Source: Planctomycetaceae bacterium
GTDB taxonomy: Bacteria > Planctomycetota > Planctomycetia > Planctomycetales > Planctomycetaceae
Length of the DNA: 46,829 nucleotides
Direction of reading: 5' to 3'
NCBI GenBank assembly: GCA_023260695.1
Contig: JALQUR010000588.1
Location: 1-46,829, forward strand
Both the position numbers and the translations under genes were made by a program. The stretch's first letter is position 1; the number at the start of each line of letters is the position of its first letter. Of this stretch, positions 9,301 to 36,192 are shown one piece after another. The notes beneath the pieces were generated by a model. The model did no database searches. It was not told the DNA's origin and saw only the letters and a program-made list of their open reading frames with translations.

Positions 9301-10016
9301 TCCGTCTGCCCAGGAAAGGGCGAATTGAATCGCCAGAGCGGCTGATCCTGCGGTCGCAGCAGCAGGTAGTCCAGCATTTTGTAGTTGGTGAGCAGGATGT
9401 CGGGGGGCTGTTCCTGCTGCACAGCATGATTGCTGATGCCATGGGTTTCGCCCATGGCTTTTGTGCCACTGTCCGCAGAAGCACCGGGATCAGACGGATC
9501 ATAGCGGCCTGTGTAGTTGCCGACACGGATTCCCGCCTGACGCAGTTCGGGGGTGCGGAAGATGGTTTTGGCAAAGCGTTTTTCCTGATCGGCGGCAAGG
9601 GCATTCATGGGATACAGGATGATTGCCTTGATGCCATCCTGTCCCTGTTTGCGTGCACGCAGAACATGATCCAGGATCGGGAACAGGAAGCATTCTGTTT
9701 TTCCGCTGCCAGTCCCGGTGGTCACGATCGTGGGACGCGGCTGCTGGCCCTGGCTGGTGAGTCTTCGCCACGACCTGTTCTGGTGTTTGAACGGGTGGAA
9801 AGAGACATCGAACTCGAACGGAACGGTTTCATCTTTGGAGGCAGGGCGGAACGGACGCCGCAGTTGCACCCACGGCCCCTTGAACAGACCGTTTTCCGGG
9901 TCCGTCAGAAACCGTTCAAACGCCGCCTCCACAGACTTCTCACGGAAATCGAACGTGGACTGAAGGTAGAACAGCACCTGAGTGCGGATGTTGTCGGCAA
10001 GGTGAGCTGGAAGCAT
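3390..10016 (-). CDS. Giant SF2 helicase with DUF1998 region and degenerate VSR-like nuclease tail
   Basis: Protein of 2208 aa. The N-terminal half is an SF2 DExH helicase: Walker A TGTGSGKTE at 100-108, DELH at 250-253, SAT at 287-289, and motif VI QRIGRAGR near 1143-1150. A coiled stretch and Cys4 clusters (CGAC...CPQC and CRDC) follow, then a DUF1998-type region ending in a cysteine set (CVC...CYRC near 1713-1736). Residues ~1800-1885 resemble a DUF559/VSR endonuclease fold (PDF near 1849, IAIFTDGFQYH near 1864), but the usual glutamate is a phenylalanine. The chain combines what DISARM splits into DrmA (helicase) and DrmB (DUF1998); DruE has a similar plan. No Shine-Dalgarno sequence is visible before its ATG, unlike the duplicated copy at 15757. 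It is translationally coupled to the UvrD gene downstream. Confidence 0.85.
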   Translation of the reverse strand: MLPAHLADNIRTQVLFYLQSTFDFREKSVEAAFERFLTDPENGLFKGPWVQLRRPFRPASKDETVPFEFDVSFHPFKHQNRSWRRLTSQGQQPRPTIVTTGTGSGKTECFLFPILDHVLRARKQGQDGIKAIILYPMNALAADQEKRFAKTIFRTPELRQAGIRVGNYTGRYDPSDPGASADSGTKAMGETHGISNHAVQQEQPPDILLTNYKMLDYLLLRPQDQPLWRFNSPFPGQTDFTQPLRYLVLDELHTYDGAQGADVACLIRRLKERLQIAPGNLCMVGTSATLDDREPARDRTAGGDERLDAAETGSDRLARFASTLFEEQILSEAVIGEDRLTVEEMIAPDPQETPLPDPAVCHPLGDEDALQYAIRQSAAWGGPVFQQELSADDADESEDLDAAIQEWSVALGNWLKQQELFRFLLTIFDRADSGHGGPLTWQGLVEQLVRDDPALKEIARFDDRSVVVASLFALVAQAKEIRSEYAFPLVPTQVQLWIRELRRLGRTVLEQPVFTWLDEPHQEFPSLPVFHCSECGESGWVGLADPSTETLIQAKGVNGFQLVDDPSQVYRAWFGYKGQRSPHLVVFSPWSDADAAGALSTVGDGVVAGTRGTGGDQQQTMGFTDWYLCPKQLVLRQEDGPCPVSNDPKRFRVKVNQETRTDERQNEVGHQGCPNCQSREGVFFIGSQSATLSSVAIDELFGSVLNNDPKLLAFTDSVQDASHRAGFFSSRTYQFTFRTALQHVIDDAGEAGIRLSDAGDALLSWWSEPRPGWRGAVREAIASLMPPDLHEYSDFVRYRNDASVQQPPKQLRAEIVQRLTWEAISEFGLMQTHGRTMEPAGSSCVAWDEGRIAATLKRLRDRIPGIDPTFADLTERQLRLWLYGFLHRGRLRGAVAHPYLDSYASNGFWGKYPFGRTLPGRETYPGGGRYKPHLMVTQSTGQHDHVLAVTRGGRVPWHLVWSRRALEVRNIEEQSLLDLIAALLVCGTESGLFVRMRQDGPKTYYAISAAAAFLTSDRVNLVCSDTGKSIVRPSAEAEYWVGGCSWEYYSSAGTYSPGDYSARQLYYQNRYRKGALRRVVASEHTGLLATEDRERLEQEFSRNEHADSANVLTCTSTLEMGIDIGDLSSTMLCSIPPNTASYLQRIGRAGRSTGTALIVSVVNQRPHDLFFFGRPAEMLRGRVDPPGCWLDASAVLVRQYLAYGFDTATSSGNLQELPASGRQLADDLSRPEGNIPRFLEWMTKEEAELRTRFLRRFQRDVAADTRDRFLSETAAELLVQRIHQATNEYSRMLRDLENSRNRLRSQLSKLDDEEKETRAEIEQELRILGGRLQSLARTTALEILTDNGLLPNYAFPERGVRFYGAIYNKHRRADQEHKPIELTRPAGVALKELAPANHFYTHSRIFDIQQIAIGNPQDPLIFTWAICGACGHMRRKEELELPESQPACPQCGHDGDSRSQLDRGQQRRFVEFSRSQSLSYMEHYESLSGDRSDERDRQHYQTVRSFDLTQEAPSGAVVDETLPFGIEYFASVVMREVNVGYQGEKGVVAFGVDQEAPEEGFRVCRDCGVVCPPSTSPDDVRHRRSCSRRRANEKRRAEKRNEQPYRWEPVYLYRELKSEAIRLLLPLADDEDIDTLTASIHLGLRLRFEGNPAHLAVSPQIMPDPATGMNRYYVVLMDAVPGGTGYLKTLFQERDGQGRDGEGVMEVLRLARNALESCVCRKLHQDPDRSETDGCYRCIRTYHLQYKSDTISRERGILLLNKLIASGEKRVASRELATIKPNSLFGSMLEKKFVDVLESFVTGRKGTWEQTVIRGNHGFRFQLPGAERLWELELQPTLGTAQGVSVKSQPDFILRTDDEKIRSIAIFTDGFQYHCHPNNRLADDFNKRRAILDSGKYYVWSVTWDDLTTETAEHVMVCDQIVLQMLQRFAAAKRAGGELVPEAKMLVGNGLTQLKAFLTVPHAAGWTQLSSFAAFFTLQSLASKRMESGHALRAALDVWRTGAAMPAVTADDDGDWVHNDRASLTQDVISYMKISDAVSNRLSQGIVVARLGDRDDEITGSDFPERWRRFLSCLNLYQFLENFRFWTSRECGVTAPEIPLEANVQVNDEWAEVLVNVLSGLRSCAEQLSRLDLPVPQVEYFNEQIDDDAFAELAWPECAPPVALLAGDQTGFARSWQNLGWKVVIPDDVQARGTEYLADLIRSGVGGK
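9844..10016. repeat. 173-bp direct repeat, inner copy (start of intact helicase gene)
   Basis: Matches 15585-15757 in the same orientation over 173 bp with five differences. Both copies end exactly at the helicase ATG. All five differences fall on third codon positions and are synonymous (codons 3, 6, 10, 18 and 23). The seven bases just outside the repeat at 9837-9843 are GGAGGCA. Confidence 0.97.
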
Positions 10017-10127
10017 TGGGAAAACAGAAGAGGATTCAGGAAACGTGGAGCCACGACGTGGTCACTGCACTTTATCAAAGCTCCCGAGACACGGAAATCT
10101 ACAGTTATCCTGCCATGCTTCTATCGC

Positions 10128-10156
10128 TTACCTTCTGCTGCCCAAAACCCTGTCAA
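10128..10156 (-). promoter_or_regulatory. Possible minus-strand promoter for the DUF1998 helicase
   Basis: A perfect TTGACA (minus strand, 10151-10156) lies about 140 bp upstream of the helicase ATG, just downstream of an A/T-rich tract that could act as an UP element. The -10 is poor: the best candidates 17 to 20 bp downstream are AGGTAA or TAAGCG. Low confidence. Confidence 0.3.
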
Positions 10157-10349
10157 GTAAAAAAAGCTCTTTTATAGAATTTTTTTGTTTTCCGTAACGG
10201 CGATGACGAACGCAATTGCTGATCCGAAAACTGCAACATACCTTAGGTGAATGCCACGAATAAAAATTCATAAACTGAATGAACTGCAGAAGTGGCTCAA
10301 GACTGACTGTCTTTCATTCAGCGATCAGTCAAATTCACTCGAATGCAAT

Positions 10350-10390
10350 CAGCACTGCTCACTTTCATTCGCTGGAAAGTGACAGTGCTG
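10350..10390. promoter_or_regulatory. Long inverted repeat, candidate operator or attenuator
   Basis: Left arm 10350-10366 (CAGCACTGCTCACTTTC) pairs with right arm 10375-10390 (GAAAGTGACAGTGCTG) with a single bulged base and an 8-nt spacer. No T-run follows on either strand, so it is not a standard terminator. It lies about 140 bp upstream of the 10532 start. Its two-fold symmetry and position suggest an operator for the HTH-PAS regulator encoded just downstream, or an RNA hairpin in the leader. Confidence 0.5.
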
Positions 10391-10531
10391 ACTTCACAGT
10401 TCATAAAAGAACAAGGAGGCCGTAACAACTCACTAAGCCCGCCAAAGCGGCGACTGATTACCCTCCAGCCGCCTACCGTCCTGCCGACGAATGTATTCCA
10501 CTGAGATCCCACCTTCGAGGAGAAAAAGCCG

Positions 10532-10867
10532 ATGTCACCCACCGAAGTACTCTCAGCTATCTTCGACTATGTCTCAACACACATTCAGCCCTCATCGATC
10601 GTCTTCGCCGCCGGCACATCCATCTGGCGATCGATCTTTCGTCCAATACCAATCACTCTACTCTGGAAGGACAGCACTCCTGCGAGCGAATGCACGGTCG
10701 TTATCGGCGGAGCGTCATTCGCCGTGAACGACAATGGCAATGTGAATGTCCCACGTCGGTACCTTGGGATGTCCGCTTCGGTGAGATATCACGAGATGCG
10801 TGAGGTCCACGTGTTCACGGTACCATCAGAAGGCAAGACTTTTCGCATGAAAAAGGAGCAAGACTAA
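10532..10867 (+). CDS. Small protein of unknown function, coupled to the PAS regulator
   Basis: A 111-aa protein whose ATG follows GAGGAG at about -15. Its stop codon overlaps the start of the next gene (TAATG at 10865-10869), so the two are almost certainly co-translated. The first ~40 residues are mildly hydrophobic but do not form a clear membrane segment. The remainder looks like a beta-rich small domain (VVIGGASFAVNDNGNV, then VRYHEMREVHVFTVP). I do not recognise a family. Translational coupling suggests a partner of the downstream regulator, for example a ligand-binding or inhibitory subunit; that is inference only. Confidence 0.65.
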   Translation: MSPTEVLSAIFDYVSTHIQPSSIVFAAGTSIWRSIFRPIPITLLWKDSTPASECTVVIGGASFAVNDNGNVNVPRRYLGMSASVRYHEMREVHVFTVPSEGKTFRMKKEQD

Positions 10868-12792
10868 TGCGAAAGCGGAAGAGTGATGTGGCGCTGCGAT
10901 CGGAAGTGTTGCAGCTGCTGGACCGTTCGCCCGACCTGACCCAGTCTGAAATCGCGCGCGAACTTGGGCTGTCTCAGTCCAAGGTTTCGCGTCTGATGAA
11001 AATGAGATCGGCCGCCCCGCTGCAATTATTGCTTGACCCAGTCTTCGAGCAAGTGCCGATCCCGCTTTATCTATCTGATCTGGAATCAGATCGTTTCCTG
11101 TATACGAATCTTGCATTCAGACGCTTGCTGCATCGAACATCAGACGAACTTGAAGCAGATTCGTTCCGTGTCTCATCACTTTACATCGACCCACTCGAGC
11201 GCGGCCATTGGGTATACGAGTTAAAGCATCCCAGCAAGCCAAATACGCCCATCGCACGCCTGTCTCGGATCCTCCGTCCTCGCAGGGACGTTCCGGAAAC
11301 ACGTGGAGGCGACAGGTTCGAAGAATTTCATCTGATGGATTCAGCGGTTCTGATTCCGGACAATCGTCAGCTGCTTGCGATCGGAACAATCGCGATTCCG
11401 CCTCAGGCCGGCCGTTGGCTGCAGATGGAAGAGCGGAATCGTGCACTGATGAACCTGATCGATAAACTACCTGTTGGCGTTCATGAACTGGATGTGAATG
11501 GCGACATCGTCTTCATGAATAGTTTTGAAAGAAATCTGCTGCAGGCAGATCCGCAGTGGGTTGAAAAAAAACCCCATGTCTCAGAACTATCACCCGTCGA
11601 TGGTGCGATTATCAGGAATCGGGTGGACCGCAAACTAAAGCACAACCGCGAACTTGCTGATAATGACCCTCGGGTATTTCGCATGCGTCCGCATGAGAAG
11701 AAACTTGGCCAGGCGGATGATTTCCCTGCCGGCGCACGTCCTCGCAATGAGCTCATTGGTGTCAGCATTACGGACTTTCCCATTCAGGAATCCAATCCTG
11801 ACACCGCCGTACTGCGAGATAATAATGGCATGTTGACGATGGTCACCCACCCTCGCGTACCGTATGAGCTGAAGAGGTACTTCGAGGAATTCGGACCGAA
11901 AAATCCGGCACTCGAGGAGGTCGGCATCTCAACGATGATCGTTGTGCTTCCAAAATTCCTGGCGGATAGTGAATACAGTGACATCGAGGCCAACGAAAGC
12001 GATGAACCGTGTTTCGTGTACGTCAATTCATCGTTTGAGAATGACGTACGAAAGATATTTGAATCGAAGGGCCACGCGGTCAAATGTAAAGAAGATCTGC
12101 TGGGGCATTCACAGTACAGGCTTTGGTCGATTCCGGACGAATCAAGCGAACACAGAACGAAGAACCTTGGAACGGCATATGCAGCTGTTGATCGAACAGT
12201 CATTGAAACAGGGCAGCCCGATGAGCGTATCGAGTCACACCTTTCCGCCACGGGAAAAACGACATGGGTGCAGGTCATCAAATTCCCGCACTACTCTGTA
12301 GTCAGAGAAGACAGCCGAACGAAGAAACCGGCCGCGCCCAGGATCATTGGCGTCGAGGCATATTTCTGGGAGGTCGGTAGAGACTCATCTTCAGGAGAAG
12401 AACTTTTCAAGCGACTCTCTCCGCATCGCCCACACACAATCCTGCACAACGCTCCTGTACCGATCTGGGCAAAGGACACGCAACTTCGATTCACGTATGT
12501 AAATCAGGCGTTTATCGATGCATTCCGATCGGACAGGACATTCGAAAATGAAACTCCCTCCAGCACATACGACGCGCGATGGTTCATTGGCAAACGCGAA
12601 GACGACTTGTTCGAGTCTCCGAAAGCTCAAGAATACGAGCAAATCGACCGCGAGATAATCACAGGAAAAGCTCAGGATAAACCATACACCGTCAAAATCG
12701 GCGACAAACAATATGAAGTGCTGAAGTCGCCAATCACAGACAAACGGATGATCATTGGAGTGCAGGGTGTTGCTTACCCCAAAGCACAGTAA
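10867..12792 (+). CDS. HTH regulator with several PAS-like sensor domains
   Basis: Protein of 641 aa. Residues ~8-48 form a helix-turn-helix (TQSEIARELGLSQSKVSRLM, about 25-44) of the kind that recognises DNA in MarR- and sigma-like factors. The rest is built of PAS-like units: ~57-178 (VPIPLYLSD...YTNLAFRRLL), from ~190 (LPVGVHELDVNGDIVFMN), ~375-515 (CFVYVNSSFENDV...) and ~530-641 (APVPIWAKDTQLRFTYVNQAF). There is no histidine kinase, GGDEF or other output domain, so the HTH is the likely output. PAS domains bind small ligands, haem or flavin, or mediate dimerisation. It overlaps the preceding small gene and converges on two membrane-protein genes. I infer that it controls the cassette in response to a cellular signal. 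Confidence 0.75.
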   Translation: MRKRKSDVALRSEVLQLLDRSPDLTQSEIARELGLSQSKVSRLMKMRSAAPLQLLLDPVFEQVPIPLYLSDLESDRFLYTNLAFRRLLHRTSDELEADSFRVSSLYIDPLERGHWVYELKHPSKPNTPIARLSRILRPRRDVPETRGGDRFEEFHLMDSAVLIPDNRQLLAIGTIAIPPQAGRWLQMEERNRALMNLIDKLPVGVHELDVNGDIVFMNSFERNLLQADPQWVEKKPHVSELSPVDGAIIRNRVDRKLKHNRELADNDPRVFRMRPHEKKLGQADDFPAGARPRNELIGVSITDFPIQESNPDTAVLRDNNGMLTMVTHPRVPYELKRYFEEFGPKNPALEEVGISTMIVVLPKFLADSEYSDIEANESDEPCFVYVNSSFENDVRKIFESKGHAVKCKEDLLGHSQYRLWSIPDESSEHRTKNLGTAYAAVDRTVIETGQPDERIESHLSATGKTTWVQVIKFPHYSVVREDSRTKKPAAPRIIGVEAYFWEVGRDSSSGEELFKRLSPHRPHTILHNAPVPIWAKDTQLRFTYVNQAFIDAFRSDRTFENETPSSTYDARWFIGKREDDLFESPKAQEYEQIDREIITGKAQDKPYTVKIGDKQYEVLKSPITDKRMIIGVQGVAYPKAQ

Positions 12793-12886
12793 CCCAGGAT
12801 TTGTCCGTGATCGATCGCACCACAATAGAATCCAGAAAGGTAATCTCTGACCACCGCCGTCGTCCGCGGCTTACCCAACTCTGGGC

Positions 12887-14044
12887 TCATGGCGTCAGTG
12901 ACCAGAACCGAAACTGCGATTTTCCGAGGTCAACAGAAACCAACGATTCGGGAGGATGTTGGCTCATCGATACACTGTCAGACGACGGAACCGCTTCGCG
13001 CGTCAGGCGATGCGGTCTTTTAGCACTTGAGTTACCGCCATTGTTACCTGAGAGCCAGAGGTGAGCCCCAAGCCCGGGGAACCGTGGGCGCATCCGAAGG
13101 TGCGTAAAATCGCCAACATTGAGCGCGCCACCCTCAATTGCCCGCAGCACATAAACACTTCCCTGTTCGACGCCGCCGGAAAACAAATGCGAATACAAAC
13201 GCCATTCGTAGGGCACGGATTTGTCAATGAGCCCACGAGAACAAAACGCATCAAAGTTCCGGAGCAACTCTTTATATTGCTCTGCGGAGATCAGGTTCTC
13301 ATTTTCCCAAACCTGCCAGCGGTCCGCGGACTTAACGACGTTTAATCGCCACTTAAGCAACAGATACCTGTAAGCGGCGGCGAGAAATCCCGTTGCGATG
13401 AATAGCCGCCAGGATGTAAAAATGAAAGACACCCATAGATAGGGCACCTCCGGCACTGACGCCAAGTGAGCAACGACAGGAATTGATACGGCGCATCCCC
13501 AAATTGGCACCGCTAACCCCCATACAGAAGTGAACACGAACATGGAATCCTTGACCAGCGAATCGAACGTTTGGTCATAAATCTGATCCGTGTAAAAACT
13601 TCTCTTCCCTCCGAATCCGGACGAAACCCAGCGCCAACACCATGCGACGCACCAAGCGCAGACAACCCCCACCATTCTGAACACCGAATGCGAATAGAGA
13701 ACGCCAACGTATGCGTTCAGGGAGTCCTCAACCCGTCGCCACCTTCTTTTCAGCGCTTCCTTTTCCAGTTGCTTCTTTTCCTTCTTTAGCTGCTTCTTCC
13801 CCTTCTTTGAGCCATCATTCAGGCGGGGCGTTGCTGGTGCCTGGGGGCGATTCAAGTTCGCGTTTCGCCGGAGTTGAGTGGCGAAGGTGATCAACCACAA
13901 GATGGGCTGAAGACAAACCAACAGCATCGCCAGCAGAAGACTTCCAAGCCAGGGCTCAACGTTCGGAAGCCCAATGTTCCAATGCCTCAGGGCCGGGAAC
14001 GCGATGCTTAGCAAAACAACAGAAAAACGATTCGCTTCATTCAT
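12887..14044 (-). CDS. Predicted multi-pass membrane protein of unknown function
   Basis: About 385 aa from the ATG at 14044; an in-frame TTG at 14059 would add five residues. Counting from the TTG, hydrophobic segments fall at ~11-27, 36-62, 126-145, 173-199 and 207-233. Between the second and third is a strongly basic, Lys/Glu-rich stretch (~83-106) that probably lies in the cytoplasm. The last ~150 residues are soluble, with several Trp and charged residues. No family recognised. It lies 61 bp downstream of another membrane protein gene on the same strand, so the two probably form an operon. A membrane effector or transport role is possible by context with the neighbouring PAS regulator, but nothing in the sequence proves it. 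Confidence 0.65.
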   Translation of the reverse strand: MNEANRFSVVLLSIAFPALRHWNIGLPNVEPWLGSLLLAMLLVCLQPILWLITFATQLRRNANLNRPQAPATPRLNDGSKKGKKQLKKEKKQLEKEALKRRWRRVEDSLNAYVGVLYSHSVFRMVGVVCAWCVAWCWRWVSSGFGGKRSFYTDQIYDQTFDSLVKDSMFVFTSVWGLAVPIWGCAVSIPVVAHLASVPEVPYLWVSFIFTSWRLFIATGFLAAAYRYLLLKWRLNVVKSADRWQVWENENLISAEQYKELLRNFDAFCSRGLIDKSVPYEWRLYSHLFSGGVEQGSVYVLRAIEGGALNVGDFTHLRMRPRFPGLGAHLWLSGNNGGNSSAKRPHRLTREAVPSSDSVSMSQHPPESLVSVDLGKSQFRFWSLTP

Positions 14045-14105
14045 GAAAAACTCTGGCAAGCCTCGCGGCCAGCCGCGGTTGACATCCGTAATCAGTCCAT
14101 ACCGT

Positions 14106-15002
14106 TCAACTTCTTTGTGGATCCATCCACTTTACAAATCCCCAAGCGGAAAGAGTAAGCAACGGGACAAGAAGTGTAAAGTCTCGGCCTGCAATCGCAC
14201 TAGCGACGGAAATTGAGAAGCCCGATAGAATCGCAATGGTCAACAGAAATTGTGATTCAACCCCGCGAATTGCAGTGGCGAAACGCTCGGCAAACGATCC
14301 AAACAGCACCAAATCGCGAGCAAACAGCCGAGAGACAGAGTCACTGAAGAAAGCAACTTCGCTTTCGTCCCTGTTGACGCCCAGTGACGAGAAAAACAGT
14401 TGCAGATCCCGGCTTCTCCGATCTAATCGGTAATTGGGAATACCGCTGCAGTTTCCATCCTGTTCCAAGGCAGAATCAAGTTTACACCACCATTCGTACG
14501 CAGTCTGAGGAAATTCAGTGTCGCGGTCGCGAGCTGCGAAGATCTTGCGAACTTCCTCCACAATTTTCGCCCAGAGCTTTACGAAGAAGACACGCAGTTG
14601 ACCAAAACCCCTCGCGTTTACGGATTCAGATGCATCTGTAGCATGATACGACGATTTCAGTACGTAACGCATAATGCTGCGCAAAGTTTCTGAGTCCGCT
14701 GCCTTTGTGTTACTGCACACGCTGTGTGCATCGCTCAGAAGACGTATCGCCCTGCACAAACTCGAAACAACGTCTGGTGGAACGTTCAGATTCACCTTAT
14801 CTGACGTCCATTGCCTCTCAAGATCACGAAACGCCGTTCCCACGCTGCGGCTGGGATCTGCAAGGCAACGACGGAACTGATTAAAGAGCGTAAGGTCCCT
14901 GTCTACGTCCTTTAAGATCATCCCGGTAAACGCCGCACCCGCAGCAAAGACTGCACGTCCCGGTAATTGCGTTAGCAGGTACTCTCCCGGAGCTAGTTGC
15001 AT
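14106..15002 (-). CDS. Protein with C-terminal two-helix membrane anchor, unknown function
   Basis: A 298-aa protein from an ATG preceded by the purine-rich AGAGAAGA. The first ~250 residues are soluble and mostly helical, with no motif I recognise. The C-terminus carries two hydrophobic helices (~252-271 and ~275-294) separated by a tight GRDF turn, ending in a short polar tail. A hairpin anchor of this type is common in membrane-acting effector proteins, in which a cytoplasmic sensor or trigger domain is tethered to the membrane; that comparison is inference. It is the first gene of a two-gene minus-strand unit that converges with the regulator operon. Confidence 0.6.
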   Translation of the reverse strand: MQLAPGEYLLTQLPGRAVFAAGAAFTGMILKDVDRDLTLFNQFRRCLADPSRSVGTAFRDLERQWTSDKVNLNVPPDVVSSLCRAIRLLSDAHSVCSNTKAADSETLRSIMRYVLKSSYHATDASESVNARGFGQLRVFFVKLWAKIVEEVRKIFAARDRDTEFPQTAYEWWCKLDSALEQDGNCSGIPNYRLDRRSRDLQLFFSSLGVNRDESEVAFFSDSVSRLFARDLVLFGSFAERFATAIRGVESQFLLTIAILSGFSISVASAIAGRDFTLLVPLLTLSAWGFVKWMDPQRS

Positions 15003-15584
15003 TCTTCTCTGTCCTGTATCGCCATGAATTGCAACCTCAAGTTTGCTTCAACCCGTGAACTGTGAAGCCTCGTAGCATACGGCCAATTCCCAGATGATGG
15101 AAGTTTTCTCGATTTGAAACTGCTTCGCTCTCCAGTTTCTCAAAAAACGTGGTTTTCCAGCGTTTCCGTAGCTTCTCCACGGCTGAAACCTGCGACCACG
15201 AAATCGTCACACAAGTCAATTCGTGACTTGCTGCTGCGATCAGCCAACGTTGCATTGCCTGCAAAGTACCGAGTAATAACTGACTTTTCGGCCATCATGG
15301 GTAATCATTGCGCCAGATAAATGTGTACCTGCAGGGGTGCGACCGCCAATGGATGCAGATCTCTGCATTTCCCTGTCATTGCGACGCAAGTGCGGCAATT
15401 CCCGCCGAAACACCACCGCATGGTCCCCATGTTCCAAACGTTTACAGTGCTGCTTCGGAACGGAGTGTGAAACCGTTCAGCCCCAGAATCACGTGTTGAA
15501 TCGACATTATCCGGACCGAAGGAATCTCTGTGGTTTTGAATGACACACTCGTTACTCAAACGGTGTGGATGGATCTCTGCCTCC
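15003..15584. other. 582-bp region between cassette and helicase stump, no clear gene
   Basis: No gene I can support. It contains a 52-codon minus-strand frame at 15140-15298 (MAEKSVITRYFAGNATLADR start) with natural-looking composition but no ribosome binding site, overlapped by another minus-strand frame at 15037-15255, and a frame that reads out of the truncated helicase start (15305-15584). It must hold the promoter of the 15002 gene and the right-hand breakpoint of the inserted block. Confidence 0.5.
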
Positions 15585-15757
15585 GGGCGGAACGGACGCC
15601 GCAGTTGCACCCACGGCCCCTTGAACAGACCGTTTTCCGGGTCCGTCAGAAACCGTTCAAACGCCGCCTCCACAGACTTCTCACGGAAATCAAACGTGGA
15701 CTGCAGGTAGAACAGCACCTGAGTGCGAATGTTGTCGGCTAGGTGAGCAGGAAGCAT
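15305..15757 (-). pseudogene. Truncated duplicate 5' end of the DUF1998 helicase gene
   Basis: The first 57-58 codons are the same protein start as the intact helicase at 10016 (MLPAHLADNIRTQVLFYLQS and onward). After the arginine-proline at codon 57-58 the sequence changes abruptly into unrelated codons that stay open to a TGA at 15305. The frame therefore would encode a 150-aa chimera with a nonsense tail. Its ATG directly follows the TAG of the DUF429 gene and has GGAGGG at a good distance, so this was most likely the original start of the operon's helicase. It now lacks every helicase motif. Confidence 0.85.
15585..15757. repeat. 173-bp direct repeat, outer copy (helicase stump)
   Basis: Pairs with 9844-10016; 168 of 173 positions identical. 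The seven bases just outside at 15578-15584 are TGCCTCC, the exact reverse complement of the heptamer outside the other copy. Distance between equivalent points of the copies is 5741 bp. Confidence 0.97.
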
Positions 15758-17029
15758 CTACGACTGCCCTCCATTCTCCGGAACAACCGCCCACAGTAAT
15801 GCTGTCTGTCCGGCACCAAATCCGCGCGCCCATTCACCCTGCTGGTTCACAAAGAACAGATCTCTATCAATTTCCGCAGATTCATCAATTCGCAACCAAC
15901 GGCGGCATTCGGCAAGTGGCCAGGGGGTTTCGGAATCGGCAGGATATGGAACGGGACTATCGTCCTGGCGGCATTCAGTGACATTCAAAGCCACACGCAA
16001 ACTTGTCCCCCAGGAAAGAAATAACCGGCCTCCTACTAAATGCAGGTTTCTGCACAATTGAGGCATGGCGTTGCTGCCACAGGGAATCCAAATTTCATCC
16101 AAATCAACGGAAGAAAGGATCGTGTCAATGGTGTCGAGTTGACTGAGTACTCTGGTGTGACCGAGACGCAAGATGACAGCGTTGGCAGGCGTGGGAACTC
16201 CATCAAGTGGGCGCACCGGCACGGTGAGTCGAGTTGGGCCTCCCCCGGCGTCACGTCTTCGTGCATCATGCGCGGTGACAGTCAACGGCGTACCGGGCAA
16301 CCGCAGGTAGATGGCTCCTTCCAAAGGATCGCCGGGCGATTCTAACTGAGCATGGCCAGATTGCTGCCAATACGACATGAACGCGCAGACAGCGGCGTCC
16401 ACCCAATCAATGCGCTGGTTCCATTTCTGCAACAGGCTGTCGCAAATCTCCAGCCCAAGCTCGTTGCATAAGGTGGTTAGCAATTCAATCCGCTGCTGGC
16501 GACCTTCCCATGAGTGCTTACTTCGCAGTGCTGATTGCGGATCAAGCCGCAGTCGTTGGATCCCGTCGACCTCATTGCGATTGCATCCCAACAGTGCCTT
16601 AAACGCGTAGGTTGGGTGAGTCTCGATCAGCTGGCCATTGCCTCCACCGCGGTTGATAGACCAATCAAATTCCGTGGAGAGAAGCTGGAACAAATCGAAT
16701 GCACTCTGCATCCAGAAATTGGTGGATCCTTGTTGCGGTGGGGCTAAACGCGTGGAGTAGCAGCCGCCGATTCCGATCTGAAACTCGGTGAGCCGTCGAT
16801 CAGTGTTATGGACCGTGTTGACCGGCAAGTGAACCGCGAGCCTTCCCTTGTTGGGATTGGGCGGTCCATCGATGCAACCGCCTTGCAGTTGATCGAATTG
16901 ACGAAGCCATCTGACTGATTCCTGTAACTCCATCCGGTCGTCGGGGTAATGAAACGCAAGTGCCTTGGTATCGAGCACGCAGCTATAGGTGTGACATTGA
17001 CCGATGTCGATGCCCGCAAACTGAGTCAT
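15758..17029 (-). CDS. DUF429-family protein, predicted RNase H-fold nuclease
   Basis: Protein of 423 aa. The first ~225 residues carry the DUF429 pattern: GIDIG with Asp8, CIDGPPNPNKGR with Asp54, IETHPTYAFKALLG with Glu136 and His138, and DWVDAAVCAF with Asp208 and Asp211. These acidic residues sit where RNase H-fold enzymes bind their metals, and the family is predicted to be nucleases; no activity is established that I know of. The C-terminal ~200 residues are beta-rich and unassigned. The ATG overlaps the methylase stop (ATGA at 17026-17029) and follows GGAGG, and its TAG directly precedes the old helicase start. It is therefore an integral operon member, not a passenger. DUF429 is not a canonical DISARM component, which makes its fixed place here notable. 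Confidence 0.8.
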   Translation of the reverse strand: MTQFAGIDIGQCHTYSCVLDTKALAFHYPDDRMELQESVRWLRQFDQLQGGCIDGPPNPNKGRLAVHLPVNTVHNTDRRLTEFQIGIGGCYSTRLAPPQQGSTNFWMQSAFDLFQLLSTEFDWSINRGGGNGQLIETHPTYAFKALLGCNRNEVDGIQRLRLDPQSALRSKHSWEGRQQRIELLTTLCNELGLEICDSLLQKWNQRIDWVDAAVCAFMSYWQQSGHAQLESPGDPLEGAIYLRLPGTPLTVTAHDARRRDAGGGPTRLTVPVRPLDGVPTPANAVILRLGHTRVLSQLDTIDTILSSVDLDEIWIPCGSNAMPQLCRNLHLVGGRLFLSWGTSLRVALNVTECRQDDSPVPYPADSETPWPLAECRRWLRIDESAEIDRDLFFVNQQGEWARGFGAGQTALLWAVVPENGGQS

Positions 17030-20000
17030 TCGTTTCCTCCTTTCCCGTACCGTTCCTCGAACACTTCCCAGGCTCGGGCGTAGTCGGCTTCGCGGTCGAC
17101 TTTGGTGAAGGGCGGATAGAAGGTCTTCGTGACAGTTTGCAGACCGTCGTCGATCTCCCAGCTGACGTCCAGCATGAGGGGAACGCGGTCGGGGCCGTAG
17201 ACGGATTCCAGTTGCCGGATTCGCCAGGGGGTGAATTCGCAGTCGGGCTGACCGTCGTCGGTATTATCCGGTTGACTGATTTCCAGATCGGGATTCTCTT
17301 CCAGGGCCTGCCGCAGCTGATCGCGTGCGACAACATAACGGCCGATCGACGCGAATTGCGTCAGATTCCACAACTCCGCTGCTCGTTCCAGTGTAATGGA
17401 CGTTTGTTCCGCAAATGGCCATTCAGGGTCCAAGGCATCCTCCGCAGCCCGGGTCACGTACGCCTCGGGAAAAAAATTGGATGCTGTTTGGAGCGCCGCG
17501 CGGAATTCGGTGCCGCCCTGGTTTTTGCGGGTGGTGTTGGGGATGTGGCGTCCTCGGGCGTCGTACTGGTCGACCAGTTCGTACTGCCGCATGACGGGAA
17601 ACTGGACTCGGTAAATGGTGAGTAGTTCGTCGAGTGTGAGTCCCAGGGCCAGGGCGACCAGCACGTCGATCTCGACCAATGCCTGCCGGCGGGCAAAATC
17701 CGTCCGCAGCGGCGTCTTCCAGGTCCAGCGGTCCGGATCGAGCTGACTCCACGGCAGCTCATACGGATACCCCATCTCGTCGGGATCGGAGGGAGTTGTC
17801 AGTTTCCGGTTTCCAGTTTCCAGAGGTGTTGCAGATACCTGTGATTCACTGGAAACTGGAAACTGCCCACTGGAAACTCCTCCAAGCCGCGGATCGTCGC
17901 TCGTCCATGCCTCGTCACGGATCGACGCATCGGCCACCTCCGTCCACAACTCCTCGTACGCTCGCGTCAGGCAGTTCAGACGAAGGGCGCGAGCGATCAT
18001 CGGTGGGTCAAACTGAGACGTGATTAGGGGAAGTCCGCGAAGGTCATCGTCGTGGATGTTGGAGCGCCCCTTGATCTTGATGTAGAAATCGAAAGGAACA
18101 GAAACTGTGCATGCTGAGAAAAGTAAGAGGGTGACTGGCTGAGAGAACATTACGACTCTCACGCCGTTGATCGCCGAACAGCCTCTTGGCAGGAGACTGC
18201 CGACGAGCGTCCTTTCGTTCGCAGGTTGTCCCATCGCGCGAATGCCGACTTTCGGCCAATCGGAAAGCGGTCGCGCTTTCAGGTTTGGAGGAGCCCAATC
18301 GACGTTGATCTTGTCAAATGCTGCCAGATTCCCTTTCGCATTGCCGAGACGGTAGACGGATCGTGGCAAGTATTTCGACGAAATCTCACGAAGATCGATG
18401 TCGTCGTATGCTCTCTGTGTCGTGCACGCTTCCCGAGCGGTTTTATTCAGAGGGATGCCTACATATATGTGGGGTCCAGACACGACCCATTCGTTCGCAA
18501 GGCACGGCTGAAAGCTGGGATTATCCTCACGAGTGATTGCGCCGTCTTTCTGACCAATGGTCTCGTTGATGAGTGTGGTAGAAGTATAGGACCGCCCAAG
18601 CGACCCAACAGTTGCGGGATAATCGGCGAACCGCAGGAGGACTTTCATCATCCCCTTACTGTGAATTTGCGGAAGGCGTGATTCGTTGGGAGCCGTCTCG
18701 GAGTCTTCAAACACGGTCTTGAAAAGCGCGAGAATACTTGAATCTACGTCGACGATCCTGTTGACGTGCCCGCGGAAGTCCCAATGCCCGTCGTCTCGTT
18801 TTATCGCGGGGGTTGGCTCAGCTATATCCGTGTGCGTGTGACAGCGACTGATGGTTGTTGCTGAAAACACATTCGCAATAAGCTGAAACTGTGGTTCACG
18901 CGGTTCCGATCGGAACACGTTGATGCTAAACGCCATTCGGTTTCCGACATCGGGAAACAAAAGCAATTCGTTCTTAAACTGATAGTGAGAGATCAGACGT
19001 GCGTAGTACGAAGCTCGGAACTCTCCACCATTGGGATCGTCGAATAGGCCTTCCGGATGAAGCAGTGCGCCTGTGCCTGAATTGGAAAGAATCGTCCACG
19101 AGCGAGTAAGAAAATTCTTGTAGAGGTTTGTCCGTCCCGATTGCAGCTCCGGGTAGATCCGGATTGATGCCAAGTTTGCGCTAGTGCCGGAGAAGCGTTG
19201 GAACTCTTGCCCGAATGTCGCCTTTGATGCAGTATCGCAAATCACAAGTGGTCGCGCTGCGGTGTATCCCGCACTGCTCAACTCTTTGACGCCCAACGCT
19301 CCATCAAATTCACTCAGTACCGCGCCTTCTGGCCAGTCGACTTGTATCCACGGCGGGTTTCCAACAACCAAATCAAACCCATCCCGCTCAGCGTGGGGGC
19401 CGAGGACTTCTGGGAAGACCAGTTCCCAGTGATGAAAGTTTTGCTCGTCACTCAGAGTGCGTGCCAGGTCGTACCACGGAACGGCGTCGGAAAGCATCTG
19501 TGTATCGGGCACCTGGCCTTCGGCCGCCGCCAGCAGCACGTCCACTTGAAAGCCGAGCTGATCGCTCATCATCTGAATCGTCAGCGGATCGGTGGGTGCC
19601 TGAGAATTCAACAGAAACCTGGCACTGGCAAGAAACGCGTCCCGCGACGGCAGGTCGGTCACTCCCTCAAGTGGCCAGAACCACAACGCACACCACGCGT
19701 CCATCACCAGCTTGAGCCGCTGAAAACTGCCGCTTGTGCTTTCCAGCTCAGCTTTCTCCCGCTCCTGGTCCGCGAGCGACGGACCGGCATCGACCGCCTC
19801 GGGCAGGTGCCCTGGAACTGGCCACACCGTGGCCGTACACGCAGTCCGCTGCAGAGCTGCGTGCCGTTGCGTGCCGTAGTTGTCCCACCGCTGGTCGATC
19901 AGATCGCAGATCTTTCGGGCTTCGTTGATCTGCTCCTTCGACCATTTCGGTTTGGCTTCCTTCGTGATCCACTTTTTCGCATGGCCGCACGCCTCCGACC

Positions 20001-27225: not shown

Positions 27226-29505
27226 CTAATAGTTTTCATAAATGTCCCGCAGATCCCTTATCAGCTCCGCAAGCGGTCCGTAGAGCATCAGGACCTTTCG
27301 GTAGAAGTACGAATCCGAGTAATAGTCGATCTCTTCACCGAAAAGAACTTCAAGAGACGGCAGCAGTTCCTCTATGGCGCATCCTACTCGCGAGGTATCT
27401 CGAAAGGATGTTGCCAGTTCGAGATTCTGGACCGCATTCCCGTCAACTTTTGGGGGTACGTTAAGCCGACTGAAATCATGCTGGAATGACAACACGAACG
27501 ATATCGACAGCAGATGTTCTTGCAAGGCGACGCCGCTCTTTGCAGCAACCCCCACAGCTTCGATGACTTGCTTCGCTTTCGTATTTGTCTTATCGGTGTG
27601 TTGAGGCCCAGACACAATCAGACACAGTGCTTCAAACAGAGTCCGTGACAGCTCCATGCTCTCCTGAACAGCAGTCTGAAACAGTCCACGATCGAGGTCG
27701 ATCACTTCGCAAGCTTCCAGCATCGTGAGTTTCCCGAGGGTACCGGGTAACAGCATCTCGGAGATCTCCCAGTACTCTGCGAACCGCTGCAGTCGCTCAA
27801 TCAGGCCATCCCACGTTTCGTACGTGCGATAAATATCACTGATTTGCAGGTTTGGCATCGCGGCGACATCACAAAACGTCGGGAGTCGTTCCTTCCTCCC
27901 GGCCCAGTCGAAGATTGCCTGGACAATATCGATATCGCGTTCAACTCTGATTCCGACAGTATTGATCGCCTCAATCGCTTCCGCAGTGAACTCCACGGAG
28001 CAGCCGTTGTCAAAAAAGAGGATCGGCTTCTGTCCCGTGTCAGCGAACTCCACCTCTCCACCAAAGTCCCTGAAGTACGAATGCACACGGTCTGCGCCAC
28101 GGTAGTTTCCGATAAAGTCGAGCACTGCGACTTCTGACTTACCGGCGCATAATCGCAGTCCACGCCCCAATTGCTGCTGAAAGACAAGTCGAGATTCTGT
28201 CGGCCGCAGAAACATCACTGCTTCGATATCAGGGAAGTCAACACCCTCGTTGAAGATGTCGCGTACAAAGAGCACCTGCAGTTCATTGCGGCGAAACTTC
28301 GCAATCCGTTCAGCCCGGTCGCTCGAACGCAGATTGGAGTGCACAGCCTCGGCCTGAACGCCATGGTCCCTGAAGTAATTTGCGATGCGGACGGAGTGTT
28401 CGATACTGACACAAAACCCAATCGCTTTCCGGGTGCCGTCCTGCACATAGCGACCGAGTATGGCTTCATCCCGGCGTTCAATAATCAACGCTTTATTCAG
28501 ATCCTGTACGTCGTAGCGAAAACCGTTGTGTCGAATATTCGAATAGTCGACATTATCTCGGTACGCCACATAGCGGAATGGCGACAGAAAACCACGTGCA
28601 ATCGCCTGCCCGACATCCAGTTGGTAAATCAGATTGTCGTCCAGCAATCGATACACATCCTGTTGATCAGTTCTGACAGGTGTTGCTGTCAGACCAAGCG
28701 TGAATTTTGGCTTAAAAAACGTCAGGATCGCCTGGTATGACGGTGCTGCAGCGTGGTGAAACTCGTCAATAATCACGTAATCGAACGAACCGGACTGAAA
28801 GTATGTGCGAAGATTGCTGCTACCCAGCGAGTGGACATTTCCGCACACCACGTCCGCGTCGGCAATCTTTTCAAAGCCGTTAAACAGCCCCACGGACCTT
28901 TCAGGCATAACGGCCATCAGCGAATCTCGCGCCTGTTGAAGTATTTCATTGTTGTGAACGATGAACAGTATCCGCCCCGGGAACTTCCTTGCATCAAATG
29001 CGGCGAGGTATGTCTTACCAAGCCCCGTGGGCAGCACGACCAGCCCTTTATTACGCCCGCTCGCTCTCGCATTCTCGATCGAATCAAGGGCTTCCTCCTG
29101 AACAAGATGTGGGGCCAGTTTCCGGCTCGCGAGAATTGGGTGGAGCGATTCATCTCCCACGAGCGATCGCCGGATCTGATCAATGCAGTAACTCGGGCGC
29201 TCAACCACATCCTGCCAGGAAAAACGGAGTACCGTCCAGCCGTCCTGAACCAGTTCATTTTGCCGCTCAAGGTGATCTGAAAACTCGCTCTGAGTCACCT
29301 GACCTTCCGCGTGATATGTAAATCCATCAAGTTCCAATGCAATTTTTTTGCGTTGACCAATTATCGCGAAGTCAACACGTCTGGAACGGCCGTTCTGCCT
29401 CACATCGTACTGATGAGAGACGCTTTCCAACGCTGTCGGTGCGACGGCCTTTGCAATGACGTTGTCAAAGAAAACTCGCTCTGGATAATGTTGAATTTCA
29501 GGCAC
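27226..29505 (-). CDS. SF2 helicase with N-terminal DUF559/VSR-like endonuclease
   Basis: Protein of 759 aa starting at GTG (29505); the ribosome binding site is weak. Residues 1-105 form a DUF559 domain of the VSR/PD-(D/E)XK class: RRVDFAI with Asp45, KIALELDGFTYH with Glu58, Asp60 and His65, then ERQNELVQDGW and FSWQDV. All expected catalytic positions are present. The helicase follows: LPTGLGKT at 159-166, DEFHH near 250, TATP, and motif VI QQLGRGLR near 440. The C-terminal ~280 residues are unassigned. Nuclease-helicase fusions of this type resemble restriction enzymes that translocate and cut. It lies downstream of the Druantia pair with a 434-bp gap and may be an independent single-gene defence, or an accessory of its neighbours. 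Confidence 0.82.
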   Translation of the reverse strand: MPEIQHYPERVFFDNVIAKAVAPTALESVSHQYDVRQNGRSRRVDFAIIGQRKKIALELDGFTYHAEGQVTQSEFSDHLERQNELVQDGWTVLRFSWQDVVERPSYCIDQIRRSLVGDESLHPILASRKLAPHLVQEEALDSIENARASGRNKGLVVLPTGLGKTYLAAFDARKFPGRILFIVHNNEILQQARDSLMAVMPERSVGLFNGFEKIADADVVCGNVHSLGSSNLRTYFQSGSFDYVIIDEFHHAAAPSYQAILTFFKPKFTLGLTATPVRTDQQDVYRLLDDNLIYQLDVGQAIARGFLSPFRYVAYRDNVDYSNIRHNGFRYDVQDLNKALIIERRDEAILGRYVQDGTRKAIGFCVSIEHSVRIANYFRDHGVQAEAVHSNLRSSDRAERIAKFRRNELQVLFVRDIFNEGVDFPDIEAVMFLRPTESRLVFQQQLGRGLRLCAGKSEVAVLDFIGNYRGADRVHSYFRDFGGEVEFADTGQKPILFFDNGCSVEFTAEAIEAINTVGIRVERDIDIVQAIFDWAGRKERLPTFCDVAAMPNLQISDIYRTYETWDGLIERLQRFAEYWEISEMLLPGTLGKLTMLEACEVIDLDRGLFQTAVQESMELSRTLFEALCLIVSGPQHTDKTNTKAKQVIEAVGVAAKSGVALQEHLLSISFVLSFQHDFSRLNVPPKVDGNAVQNLELATSFRDTSRVGCAIEELLPSLEVLFGEEIDYYSDSYFYRKVLMLYGPLAELIRDLRDIYENY

Positions 29506-29939: not shown

Positions 29940-32900
29940 CTAGTCCTCGTGATTCTCAACGTAGAACAATGTGCGTGAATTTGCATGCTGGAATACTTCA
30001 AAGTCCTCAGTTAACTGCTGAACCTGTTCGTCCGGAGATTTACCAAATGAAAAATTCACAGACCCTGCGGCGTTCAGGAAGCCAACGCCATGATCAAGTA
30101 TCAAGAAGACTGTCCGGCGCCCCCGCGACCACTTCAGCGTCATTGTGCGTGCATGCTGCAGAGTTCGGTAATCGACAATATCCACTGAGGGGCGACCGCA
30201 CACATCGGCGAGCACTCGCTTCAACACTCCCTTTTGCACACGCAACTGGGTCCAGTCATGACCGATCAAATGCGGTACACGATTCTCGTTAGAACATGTT
30301 GTACGCACTTCAATCTGCCGAATCTGACCGTTCGGACATCTCGTCCGCAGCCCGACAAGCAACTGCTGCAGAATCTTGACCTGCAACGGAGAACGCAGAT
30401 AACGGTCTTCGTAACAGATATAGTCCGGCATTGCCTCCCGTAGCCATTCATCCAGCCAGTCCACAGCGCCGCACACATGCTGCCAGAACTTGAGGCCCAC
30501 TTCATTGCTGGAGCCATTCAGTTCATGATTCACTTCAAGTTTCTTGCATGTCTGAGGCTGAGCGGCCAGGACATCGCCCATCGAGACCTTTTTTGCGGCC
30601 CGGTCATCAATTACAGCAGACGGAGCAGTTGCGCAGACCACAATGTTCCCGTCTCCGCACGCGCCCCAGTCGGCCCCAGCTTCAAGGGATTCCTCGTCAA
30701 ATACTGCGTAGGTACGGACTGATTCATCCCGATATGCTTCCAGCAACAAATTGCCATTCTCGGCTCGGCCTCGCTCGTCGGGCACCGCCAGCAGGTTTAC
30801 TCCCAGTGCCTCACAACGAGCGGCCAGTGCATGCAGCGTGCGCCAAGGCAATCGTTTCTTCACACTGGCCGGCACACACAACTCACACAGCACAGACTGC
30901 TGGAATCTGCCGCTGCGGCCGAAGTACAGCAACGTCTCAAATCGGGCCGGATCCCAACGGTCCGGGTTACCACCCAGCCAAATTCGAATTCGTCTGAGCG
31001 TCGGATCGCTGATTTCTGTCAAGATAACTTCTTTGACCCGGCGGGCTTCGTATCGTGTGTCCGGACCAAAGCACTTGAATTGCTCCGGCAAAGATAACTG
31101 CTGTTGGATCCCACCATCCAGCCATTCGACCAGAGCATTGCGATTCAGATACTCGGCGACATGCTGTGAATCAAAATCCAGCAGACAGGAATGACAATAC
31201 GCATCACACTCACATTCCCGCAGACGGCCTGCCAACTTTTGAAATATTTCCGGAATGGCCCCCGGAAGTCCCGTTACATAGCCAGCGCCACCTGCCGCAG
31301 AATCAAAGAGAAAAATGTCTCGAAAACTCAACTCGTCTTCCCGCGAATCCTGCACCGCCCAGCCAATTTCACGGCGGTCAATTCCCAGATGCTCAGCTGC
31401 AGCATTGCGCAGACTCACTGCCAGGGTCCTTGCCAGCACATCACTCAGCACGCCGTTACTGGTATGCGGATCTCGCAACCTCAGTTGCAGAATATCAGTA
31501 CTGACCTCACCGCCCAGCAATAGATTTCTCTTGATGCTGAAACCCATCTCACTGCCCGGACAGGCGTCTATTCTTCGCTGCCCACGAAGTTCTTTTTTGC
31601 CACTTCGCAATGGAACATGCAAACCCCTGGTGTCGAACGGAGCTTTCGAATATCTGCTAGCAGGCCCCTTTTCAGACTCTGCCCGGCCACACTGCAGACA
31701 TAACGCGTATCCAAATCCAGATCTTCCGTCACTGCGATGAAAAATCATTCCCTCGCTGCTTACACGTATCCGACCCAATGAGGGATTCAATAACGACGTC
31801 CACTCACCTTTCTTGCAGGACAGAATTGGGTCTCGTGAGGGAATGTAATTCACTTGCTCAGTTGCCGCTTCAGGCTCACCGTTCCAAAAATCCACGGCGA
31901 ATCCGGCCGGTCGGATAAACTCGTCAATCTTAAGTTGATTGGCCGCACCGCACCGATCACACGCATCAGGAGGACTTTCTGTGATATCAAAAGCCCCACA
32001 ATTCGTGCACCGCCAAATATGCCGAATCTCCTGCGTCTCGCGGAGTGGCTCGTCCGCAGGCGGAATTTTCCAGTGAAGTGAAAGCCCGGCAGACTTATAA
32101 GACAACCCATCAATGACTATCGAATTCCCCGGTGCATACTCGCGAATAGCGATCGGTAGTTCGCGAGATGGAAAACTGCGAAACGTACTGAATCCGTCCT
32201 CCCGCCCATCGTCACCGGGATGACTCCCTGCTGCGTTTCTTTCCGCTCCGATGGATTCCTCACTTGTCGTCACAAATGGCAGCACATGCATTGGAAAACC
32301 GTGCCGTGGAAGAAATCCTGAGGTTGCCAGATCCGTCAACAGAAAGTCTTCCCTTTGTCGCTGCAGGCGATGCCCTGCCGCCCTGGCGGCTGCACTGTCT
32401 TCGTTGCCCGTACGTTCCACTACAAGGTCATACTCACGCTGCAGCAATTCCGTCTGGATCTGCCAGTCTCGATACCCGTCCTGCAACTGCTCGATACATT
32501 CTCTGATCTGCAGCCGACGGTCCTCCGCGTGCAGGATCGTTTTTGCACGCACTGTATCAAGGCCCCCCATCAATGCGTCATCCTGCTCCGCGGAACTCTC
32601 CAGCCAGGACAGAAACTGAGCACATCGGGAATCACAACCATCCTCTGCAGAATAGAACCACTCACACTGCAGCTTGATCACATTGTCTGTCTGTTTCATC
32701 AAGAAATGACTAAGCAGAAACGCATTGATATGCCGCTGCACAATTCGCCGACTATTCAGTGCAACAACCGGCACATTGACCGGAGTGATAAAAGGCCACG
32801 CTGTCCTGCGAAAAACCGCACGTTCATGCGGCTGATCCTGGCAGACTGTCAACGTGCTCGCCTGGCTGATATCGCGGCGACCTGCTCGTCCTGCACGCTG

Positions 32901-36191: not shown

Positions 36192-36192
36192 T

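Follow-up and report, generated by a model that had tools for sequence, protein, structure and literature searches.

ARMADA type II has been described with a strict gene order, and Escherichia coli ATCC 8739 is a strain in which it was described (Bell et al. 2025, PMC12458937). The same paper reported the pairing of ARMADA with Druantia III in E. coli islands, and the words "accessory" and "duplication" are absent from its main text. In this study, we analyzed an operon on a stretch of 46,829 nucleotides (nt) from Planctomycetaceae bacterium (assembly GCA_023260695.1, contig JALQUR010000588.1), and the whole stretch is referred to as the window. Judged by sequence comparison, the operon is an ARMADA type II gene set in the order armA-armB-armC-armD, and the first 173 nt of its helicase gene armC, the armC head, are present twice. 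The gene set, the gene order and an adjacent Druantia III are common to the window and the E. coli system. However, the window differs from ARMADA type II as described in that an accessory gene, a 5.6-kb block and a severed armC head lie between armB and armC.

The closest analogy to this arrangement is the immunity-gene arrays of the type VI secretion system in Vibrio cholerae, in which orphan immunity genes accumulate downstream of the secretion cluster (PMC5361080). Homology-facilitated illegitimate recombination was proposed for these arrays, a process that the authors of that paper called quite rare in experiments. In the window, by contrast, two accessory cargos flank the severed head of a core defense gene, and a putative crossover is visible in the repeat. 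Natural transformation in Streptococcus pneumoniae can form merodiploids, which are likewise partial duplications made by recombination with partly homologous donor DNA (PMC3784515). The tandem duplications described there span about 100-900 kb at repeats, whereas in the window a 173-nt head was duplicated and new genes were gained. A third comparison concerns target genes that survive an insertion. Integrative elements such as SXT, which inserts at prfC, interrupt a gene at its 5' end and provide a new start in its place; their target likewise stays whole through a carried 5' end. Unlike at SXT-like elements, no integrase was recognized in the block, the joint is not fixed, and an armB tail stands at the joint of a second genome, G018 (G, L and C numbers are our labels for genomes, loci and contigs). 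Illegitimate recombination, embedded accessory genes and ARMADA are each already known, and no description of an armC-head scar was found in the open-access literature searched.

Results

The armC head occurs twice in the window

Comparison of the window with itself gave a single repeat at E ≤ 1e-5. This was a direct repeat of 173 nt with 97.1% identity (E = 1.5e-79), the copies of which are spaced 5741 bp apart (Table 1). The ATG of armC is the first codon of both copies. The inner copy is the start of the full helicase of 2208 amino acids (aa), and the outer copy is a stump directly 3' of the stop codon of a DUF429 gene. The frame of the stump extends to 150 aa, without recognizable homology beyond the head. 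The two copies differ at nt 9, 18, 30, 54 and 66, and all five differences are synonymous, while the synonymous share of random changes in nt 4-66 is about 25-27% (p about 0.001-0.0015). A sequence-only reading of this DNA had claimed the repeat and its spacing, the intact inner copy, the outer stump and the five synonymous differences, and all of these were confirmed. It had also claimed that the copies diverged inside working genes, which was borne out for the differing parts of the heads because all five differences are synonymous. A simple tandem duplication of the gene start was ruled out, since the DNA upstream of the two copies is unrelated.

The outer copy keeps the ancestral junction context

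The upstream context of the outer copy, GGAGGGCAGTC-stop-ATG, is shared with Aporhodopirellula aestuarii (L024), where the operon is uninterrupted and the helicase is 73-74% identical to that of the window. In L024, the armB stop runs straight into the armC ATG. Directly before L024 armC stands ATGGAGGGCAGTCATAA, and the armB end of another planctomycete locus, L023, is identical in letters as far as its stop. Unrelated DNA precedes the inner copy. Because the outer context is common to L024 and L023 and the inner one is unrelated to it, the ancestral armB/armC junction is at the outer copy, and what precedes the inner copy is foreign to that junction.

Sequence identity was blind to which copy is foreign, because both copies match L023 and L024 equally. 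In nt 1-66, the outer and inner copies matched L024 at 53/66 and 54/66 positions and L023 at 52/66 and 53/66 positions, so the attempt to assign the copies to different relatives failed, and the proposed check of which relative each copy is closest to did not discriminate. The sequence-only reading had also expected a relative in which the DUF429 stop runs straight into one helicase start. The single helicase ATG abutting a stop codon was found in L024, but the upstream gene there is armB and DUF429 is absent. None of the 17 other genomes of the genus carries the block (18 were searched, including that of the window), in agreement with the view that the block is not a fixed arrangement among relatives.

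The differences are confined to the first part of the repeat

The two copies differ at 5 of 66 positions in nt 1-66 and at none of 107 positions in nt 67-173 (Fisher p = 0.007). In the same two segments, L023 and L024 differ at 5/66 and 23/107 positions, which indicates that nt 67-173 is normally the faster-changing segment; the contrast with the window repeat was significant at p = 0.001. The window and L024 differ at 13 and 26 positions, respectively (contrast with the repeat, p = 0.008). From the synonymous sites, 8.2 differences were expected in nt 67-173, where none was observed (Poisson P = 3e-4), and a milder test, that all five differences fall in the first part, gave p = 0.008. The similarity break in the repeat is as predicted for a homologous crossover on one side, inside nt 67-173. 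The inner nt 1-66 would then be donor sequence, and beyond the crossover both copies would be resident sequence.

A long assembly word is of about the same length as the identical stretch of 107 nt, and the window is the whole of contig C402 in a fragmented, metagenome-like assembly of 734 contigs (90% complete). The window could thus be an assembly chimera, in which a strain with DUF429-armC and a strain with block-armC were joined at the shared 107 nt and no cell has both. However, a chimera at the shared stretch alone would not account for nt 173 being joined to the block, the 173-mer did not occur in any other contig of the assembly, and a comparable arrangement is present in G018, a genome in a single contig of 7.3 Mb. 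We judge a chimera to be quite improbable.

Recombination between two related operons, which the sequence-only reading had listed as an alternative, fits best. Two operon versions with different cargo probably, though by no means surely, recombined with armC homology as the anchor on one side and a non-homologous joint on the other. The following account of the donor operon, the recombination route and the sequence of events is inferred. The resident version would have held the DUF429 gene in a slot between armB and armC, and the donor would have been another operon version with the block in this slot and a slightly different armC head. On the armC side, homologous exchange would have occurred with a crossover inside nt 67-173, and armC would have stayed whole because the crossover fell inside this part of the homologous head. 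On the other side, the donor end would have been attached to nt 173 of the resident armC by a non-homologous joint, so that the route would be homology-facilitated illegitimate recombination. The product would keep both cargos with the severed armC head between them.

Several observations weigh against this explanation. The donor operon was not found in the collections searched. The left edge of the block, taken as an armB tail, scored 11 against a shuffle mean of 11.4; its GGRDPSTPFE-stop frame begins like the RYGG tails of relatives, a resemblance of a few letters only. When anchored after nt 173, the outer tail showed a faint similarity to the inner sequence, marginally above that at random places (3-5 of 400 for lengths of 30-100, but 75/400 for length 20 and 37/400 for length 200), while free local alignment of the outer tail after nt 173 with the rest of armC gave no similarity. 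The 7 nt after the two copies are exact reverse complements (outer GGAGGCA, 15578-15584; inner TGCCTCC, 9837-9843), which holds for about 1 in 20,000 random pairs in a post hoc count and is not predicted by the recombination model. Such scars are also uncommon. An armC-head profile of 13 heads, including those of the window and the intact G018 head, gave 26 matches, both stumps included, which were spread over 21 of 327 genomes, and a short-frame head with a second head on the contig was present in 2 of the 21 genomes, the window and G018. The recombination of two operon versions is rated as probable, and no higher, because the donor was not found and the contig is known from its assembly.

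A comparable scar is present in a second genome

G018 belongs to the same family as the window and to another genus. In this genome, a stretch of 165 nt that begins at the armC ATG is found again 2941 nt upstream, with 83% identity. The stump has a 36-nt internal deletion and then runs in frame into a copy of the armB end (77 nt, 82%), forming a 95-aa open reading frame (ORF). A KAP-type NTPase gene, the ATG of which overlaps the stop of this ORF, and then the intact armC come next. The order of armB, a 194-aa gene, the armC head fused to the armB tail, the KAP gene and armC reads as two slot versions in series. Since ArmA, ArmB and ArmC of G018 match the E. coli system in pieces only, short of full-length similarity, and no armD was seen after armC on the stretch examined, the operon is called ARMADA-like here and given no type.

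Over 55 codons, the G018 stump and the intact head showed 12 synonymous and 13 nonsynonymous codon differences, compared with 15 and 4 between the intact heads of G018 and G545 (the G553 row, one base out of register, was left out of this comparison). Because of this contrast, the G018 stump seems to be decaying and the event to be older. Both stumps have open frames, of 150 aa in the window and 95 aa in G018, and the overlap of the G018 stop with the next ATG would suit a stump retained for function, either as a leader coupling translation of the accessory genes or as a short head-domain protein. However, the codon differences in G018 look like loss of constraint, and the stop/ATG overlap arrived with the armB tail. 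Retention for function is hardly likely.

Both scars could also be remainders of deletions. Another operon version, or a tandem copy of the operon, would have come to stand next to the original one. A large deletion would then have removed the DNA between nt 173 of the original armC and the left edge of the block in the second operon, leaving the stump as the remainder of the original armC, with later gene conversion making nt 67-173 identical. Such a deletion yields the same order of parts in the window and in G018, and paired YprA helicase genes do exist in one locus (L099). It requires two or three events, however, and both scars keep short ends (173 nt in the window; a head of about 195 nt and an armB tail of 87 nt in G018), whereas ends in genes of 4-6.6 kb should usually fall farther in. 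We consider a deletion unlikely.

A survey of separated direct repeats of at least 60 nt gave 5 distinct loci among 52 (0.79 Mb, with G018 in twice), and only the repeats of the window and G018 begin at a start codon, which in G018 is an ATG later than the start picked automatically. Neither the armC head nor the armB tail had a second copy at E 0.01 in the eight loci of other phyla. Several further candidates were not counted as scars. In L104 (G474), armC residues 16-118 are followed by about 310 nt that are unrecognizable to the contig end, with no intact armC in view; it is a possible third stump. The armC-like ORF of L156 (G571; 1012-2272) has a head that runs into its own tail region, which is an internal deletion. 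The head in G095 stands in its own 290-aa frame and was taken for a split gene, and the two YprA helicase genes of L099 are both whole. L051 and L056 gave additional weak matches (E 8e-5 to 0.013; scattered, on both strands), which were dropped as chance. L096 (G449) was likewise set aside. There, at L096:4120-6320, a 100-nt piece close to the 3' end of a 287-aa ORF recurs past an inserted 297-aa ORF, which makes it another gene-end scar in a defense-type locus.

The armB-armC gap varies among planctomycetes

The gap between armB and armC was compared in 10 planctomycete loci with an armB end readable upstream of the armC start, not all of which were shown to be ARMADA type II; loci with reverse gene order or without a recognized armB were left out. 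The gap measures 9037 nt in G009, 7009 nt in the window, 5521 nt in G231, 3977 nt in G018, 2628 nt in G545, 1857 nt in G418, about 1014 nt in G520, 914 nt in L023, about 564 nt in G553 and 0 nt in L024. It is filled by at least one ORF of at least 190 aa in 7/10 loci, and the content is different in each. In L023, a serine/threonine kinase gene lies in the gap. In other phyla, an annotated gene was found in the gap in 1/8 loci (Nostoc), these eight being taken from 30 plasmid records listed among 176 matching ones. Of the 518 matching E. coli genomes, 514 had one place covering at least 80% of a 1101-nt junction query, and in the one examined of the four others armB is annotated as broken, with an IS3 element near the armC start. 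This search gave 529 places, 11 of which were second places in a genome and were left out of the reading. These results suggest that the planctomycete armB-armC gap serves as a slot for accessory genes.

The inserted block has no recognizable recombinase

No integrase or transposase was recognized in the block. Pfam gave no match for three of the four larger ORFs, the fourth being the HTH and PAS protein, and PHROGs and NCBIfam had no match for the same three, which upheld the earlier statement that no integrase is visible there. The 390-aa protein had relatives in none of 293 other genomes of the phylum sample. For the 298-aa protein there was one weak match (E 8e-4, residues 3-88) inside a 904-aa ORF of G114, and the 641-aa protein had matches in 8 other genomes of 294, each covering part of the protein only. 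Among viral contigs, no relative of the 390- or 298-aa protein was found, and plasmids held no relative of the 298-, 390- or 641-aa protein. Single-sequence fold predictions of block proteins were unusable (mean predicted local distance difference test scores of 37.9 and 47.5).

The sequence-only reading had likened the block to an integrative element, which would have entered the armC start with a replacement 5' end and whose recombinase would lie elsewhere or be unrecognized. In favor of such an element, armC remains intact by means of the 5' end brought along with the block, a crossover between the repeats would yield a circle of 5741 bp and an empty operon, and the 298- and 390-aa proteins of no known family could hide a recombinase. 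However, no recombinase was recognized with Pfam, PHROGs or NCBIfam, no copy is present in the 17 other genomes of the genus, and the identical stretch is only 107 nt. The two scars break armC at different codons and have unrelated cargo, and that of G018 is fused to an armB tail. One fixed integration site is unlikely because the armC joint is at codon 58 in the window and at about codon 77 in G018. Independent insertions with a shared attachment site were not found; there are two cases, the second of which is perhaps another kind of event. An integrative element is therefore very unlikely, and recombination between two operon versions is preferred.

The hairpin upstream of armC has z = -3.65 for a 191-nt stretch, and an operator or attenuator would be a guess at its role. 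Rfam gave a single match, under its gathering score. A promoter scan found 2 sigma-70-like sites against a shuffle mean of 3.9, none of them between the regulator-like genes and armC. The arrangement suggests that armC-armD may now be a separately controlled unit behind an intergenic region shared with the divergent HTH-PAS gene. Recombination between the repeats is predicted to be able to excise the block and restore DUF429-armC coupling.

Operon identity and neighboring genes

The four core genes of ARMADA type II are present in the window, namely SNF2/BrxHII-like, PglX-like, YprA-like and UvrD/GajB-like genes. Alignments of the proteins with their counterparts from an E. coli plasmid operon (L042) span most of the length and show 34, 35, 30 and 36% identity, and the armB/armC junctions of L042 and E. 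coli ATCC 8739 share 97.2% identity. The A-B-C-D order is retained, although accessory genes interrupt it at the A/B and B/C boundaries. ARMADA type II is also marked by a RelE-like domain in the N-terminal part of ArmD. The alignment of window ArmD starts at residue 55, corresponding to residue 3 of E. coli ArmD, and Pfam found no RelE domain in it.

Table 1. Positions of the operon genes, the two armC heads and the inserted block in the window.
Feature	Position	Strand	Basis
armD, UvrD/GajB-like helicase, 746 aa	1315..3555	-	match to L042
armC, YprA-like (YprA/DruE-like) helicase, 2208 aa	3390..10016	-	Pfam and others, match to L042
Inner armC head (first 173 nt of intact helicase gene)	9844..10016	-	self-comparison, alignment
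nt 67-173 of inner head, identical to 15585-15691; probable site of crossover	9844..9950	-	alignment, difference statistics
nt 1-66 of inner head, with all 5 synonymous differences from 15692-15757; putative donor sequence	9951..10016	-	
Inserted block, 5568 nt	10017..15584	.	sequence between copies; absence in relatives
18-bp hairpin in 515-nt region between regulator-like genes and armC	10348..10392	.	
Block ORF, 111 aa, no known family	10532..10867	+	
Block ORF, 641 aa, HTH + PAS, regulator-like, transcribed away from armC	10867..12792	+	Pfam
Block ORF, 390 aa, membrane-like segments, no known family	12887..14059	-	
Block ORF, 298 aa, one membrane-like segment, no known family	14106..15002	-	
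Block left edge, 10-codon frame GGRDPSTPFE-stop, candidate donor armB tail	15552..15584	-	
Outer armC head, stump cut at nt 173 (codon 58)	15585..15757	-	self-comparison, alignment
Ancestral armB/armC junction context ATGGAGGGCAGTCGTAG (stop, then ATG) at outer copy	15758..15774	-	match to L024, L023
DUF429 gene, putative resident accessory gene of slot	15758..17029	-	Pfam
armB, PglX-like DNA methyltransferase, 1851 aa	17026..22581	-	match to L042
Accessory ORF between armA and armB, 162 aa	22581..23069	-	weak 23S_rRNA_IVP match, below curated cut-off
armA, SNF2/BrxHII-like helicase, 1003 aa	23066..26077	-	match to L042, PADLOC

The armA-armB gap may be a second accessory slot, which holds the 162-aa protein in the window and an unrelated-looking 411-aa ORF in L024. 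Inside the armB frame, a 32-nt imperfect inverted repeat with 25 nt between the arms was observed at 17792-17880. A complete Druantia III lies beside the ARMADA operon at 29940-39642, with DruE at 29940-36203 and DruH at 36193-39642 (PADLOC: DruE3, 2022 bits; DruH3, 214 bits). Between armA and Druantia III, a gene at 27226-29505 encodes a ResIII-type helicase with an N-terminal MTES_1575/DUF559-like nuclease region, and its product matches type IV restriction enzymes in PADLOC. The assembly of the window holds a third YprA-type helicase gene on contig C481 (L105:1-4982).

Discussion

In planctomycetes, the slot of ARMADA-like operons may be a growing cargo array, in which armC heads serve as landing pads that stack operon versions, the newest cargo is removable and armC-armD is switchable; we regard this extension as doubtful. 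If it is true, the repeat would let ordinary homologous recombination remove the newest cargo and restore the coupled operon. Gain and loss of the block, with its HTH-PAS regulator and operator-like hairpin, would then heritably switch armC-armD between coupled and separate expression.

The gain of accessory genes between core defense genes has so far mostly been inferred from presence and absence. In the window, the acquisition route is legible, as the severed head would mark the joint and the ancestral junction is kept beside it and in a relative. With the comparable scar and its armB tail in G018, recombination between operon versions anchored in a core gene becomes testable. These results suggest that such operons can gather extra genes by recombining with different versions of themselves.

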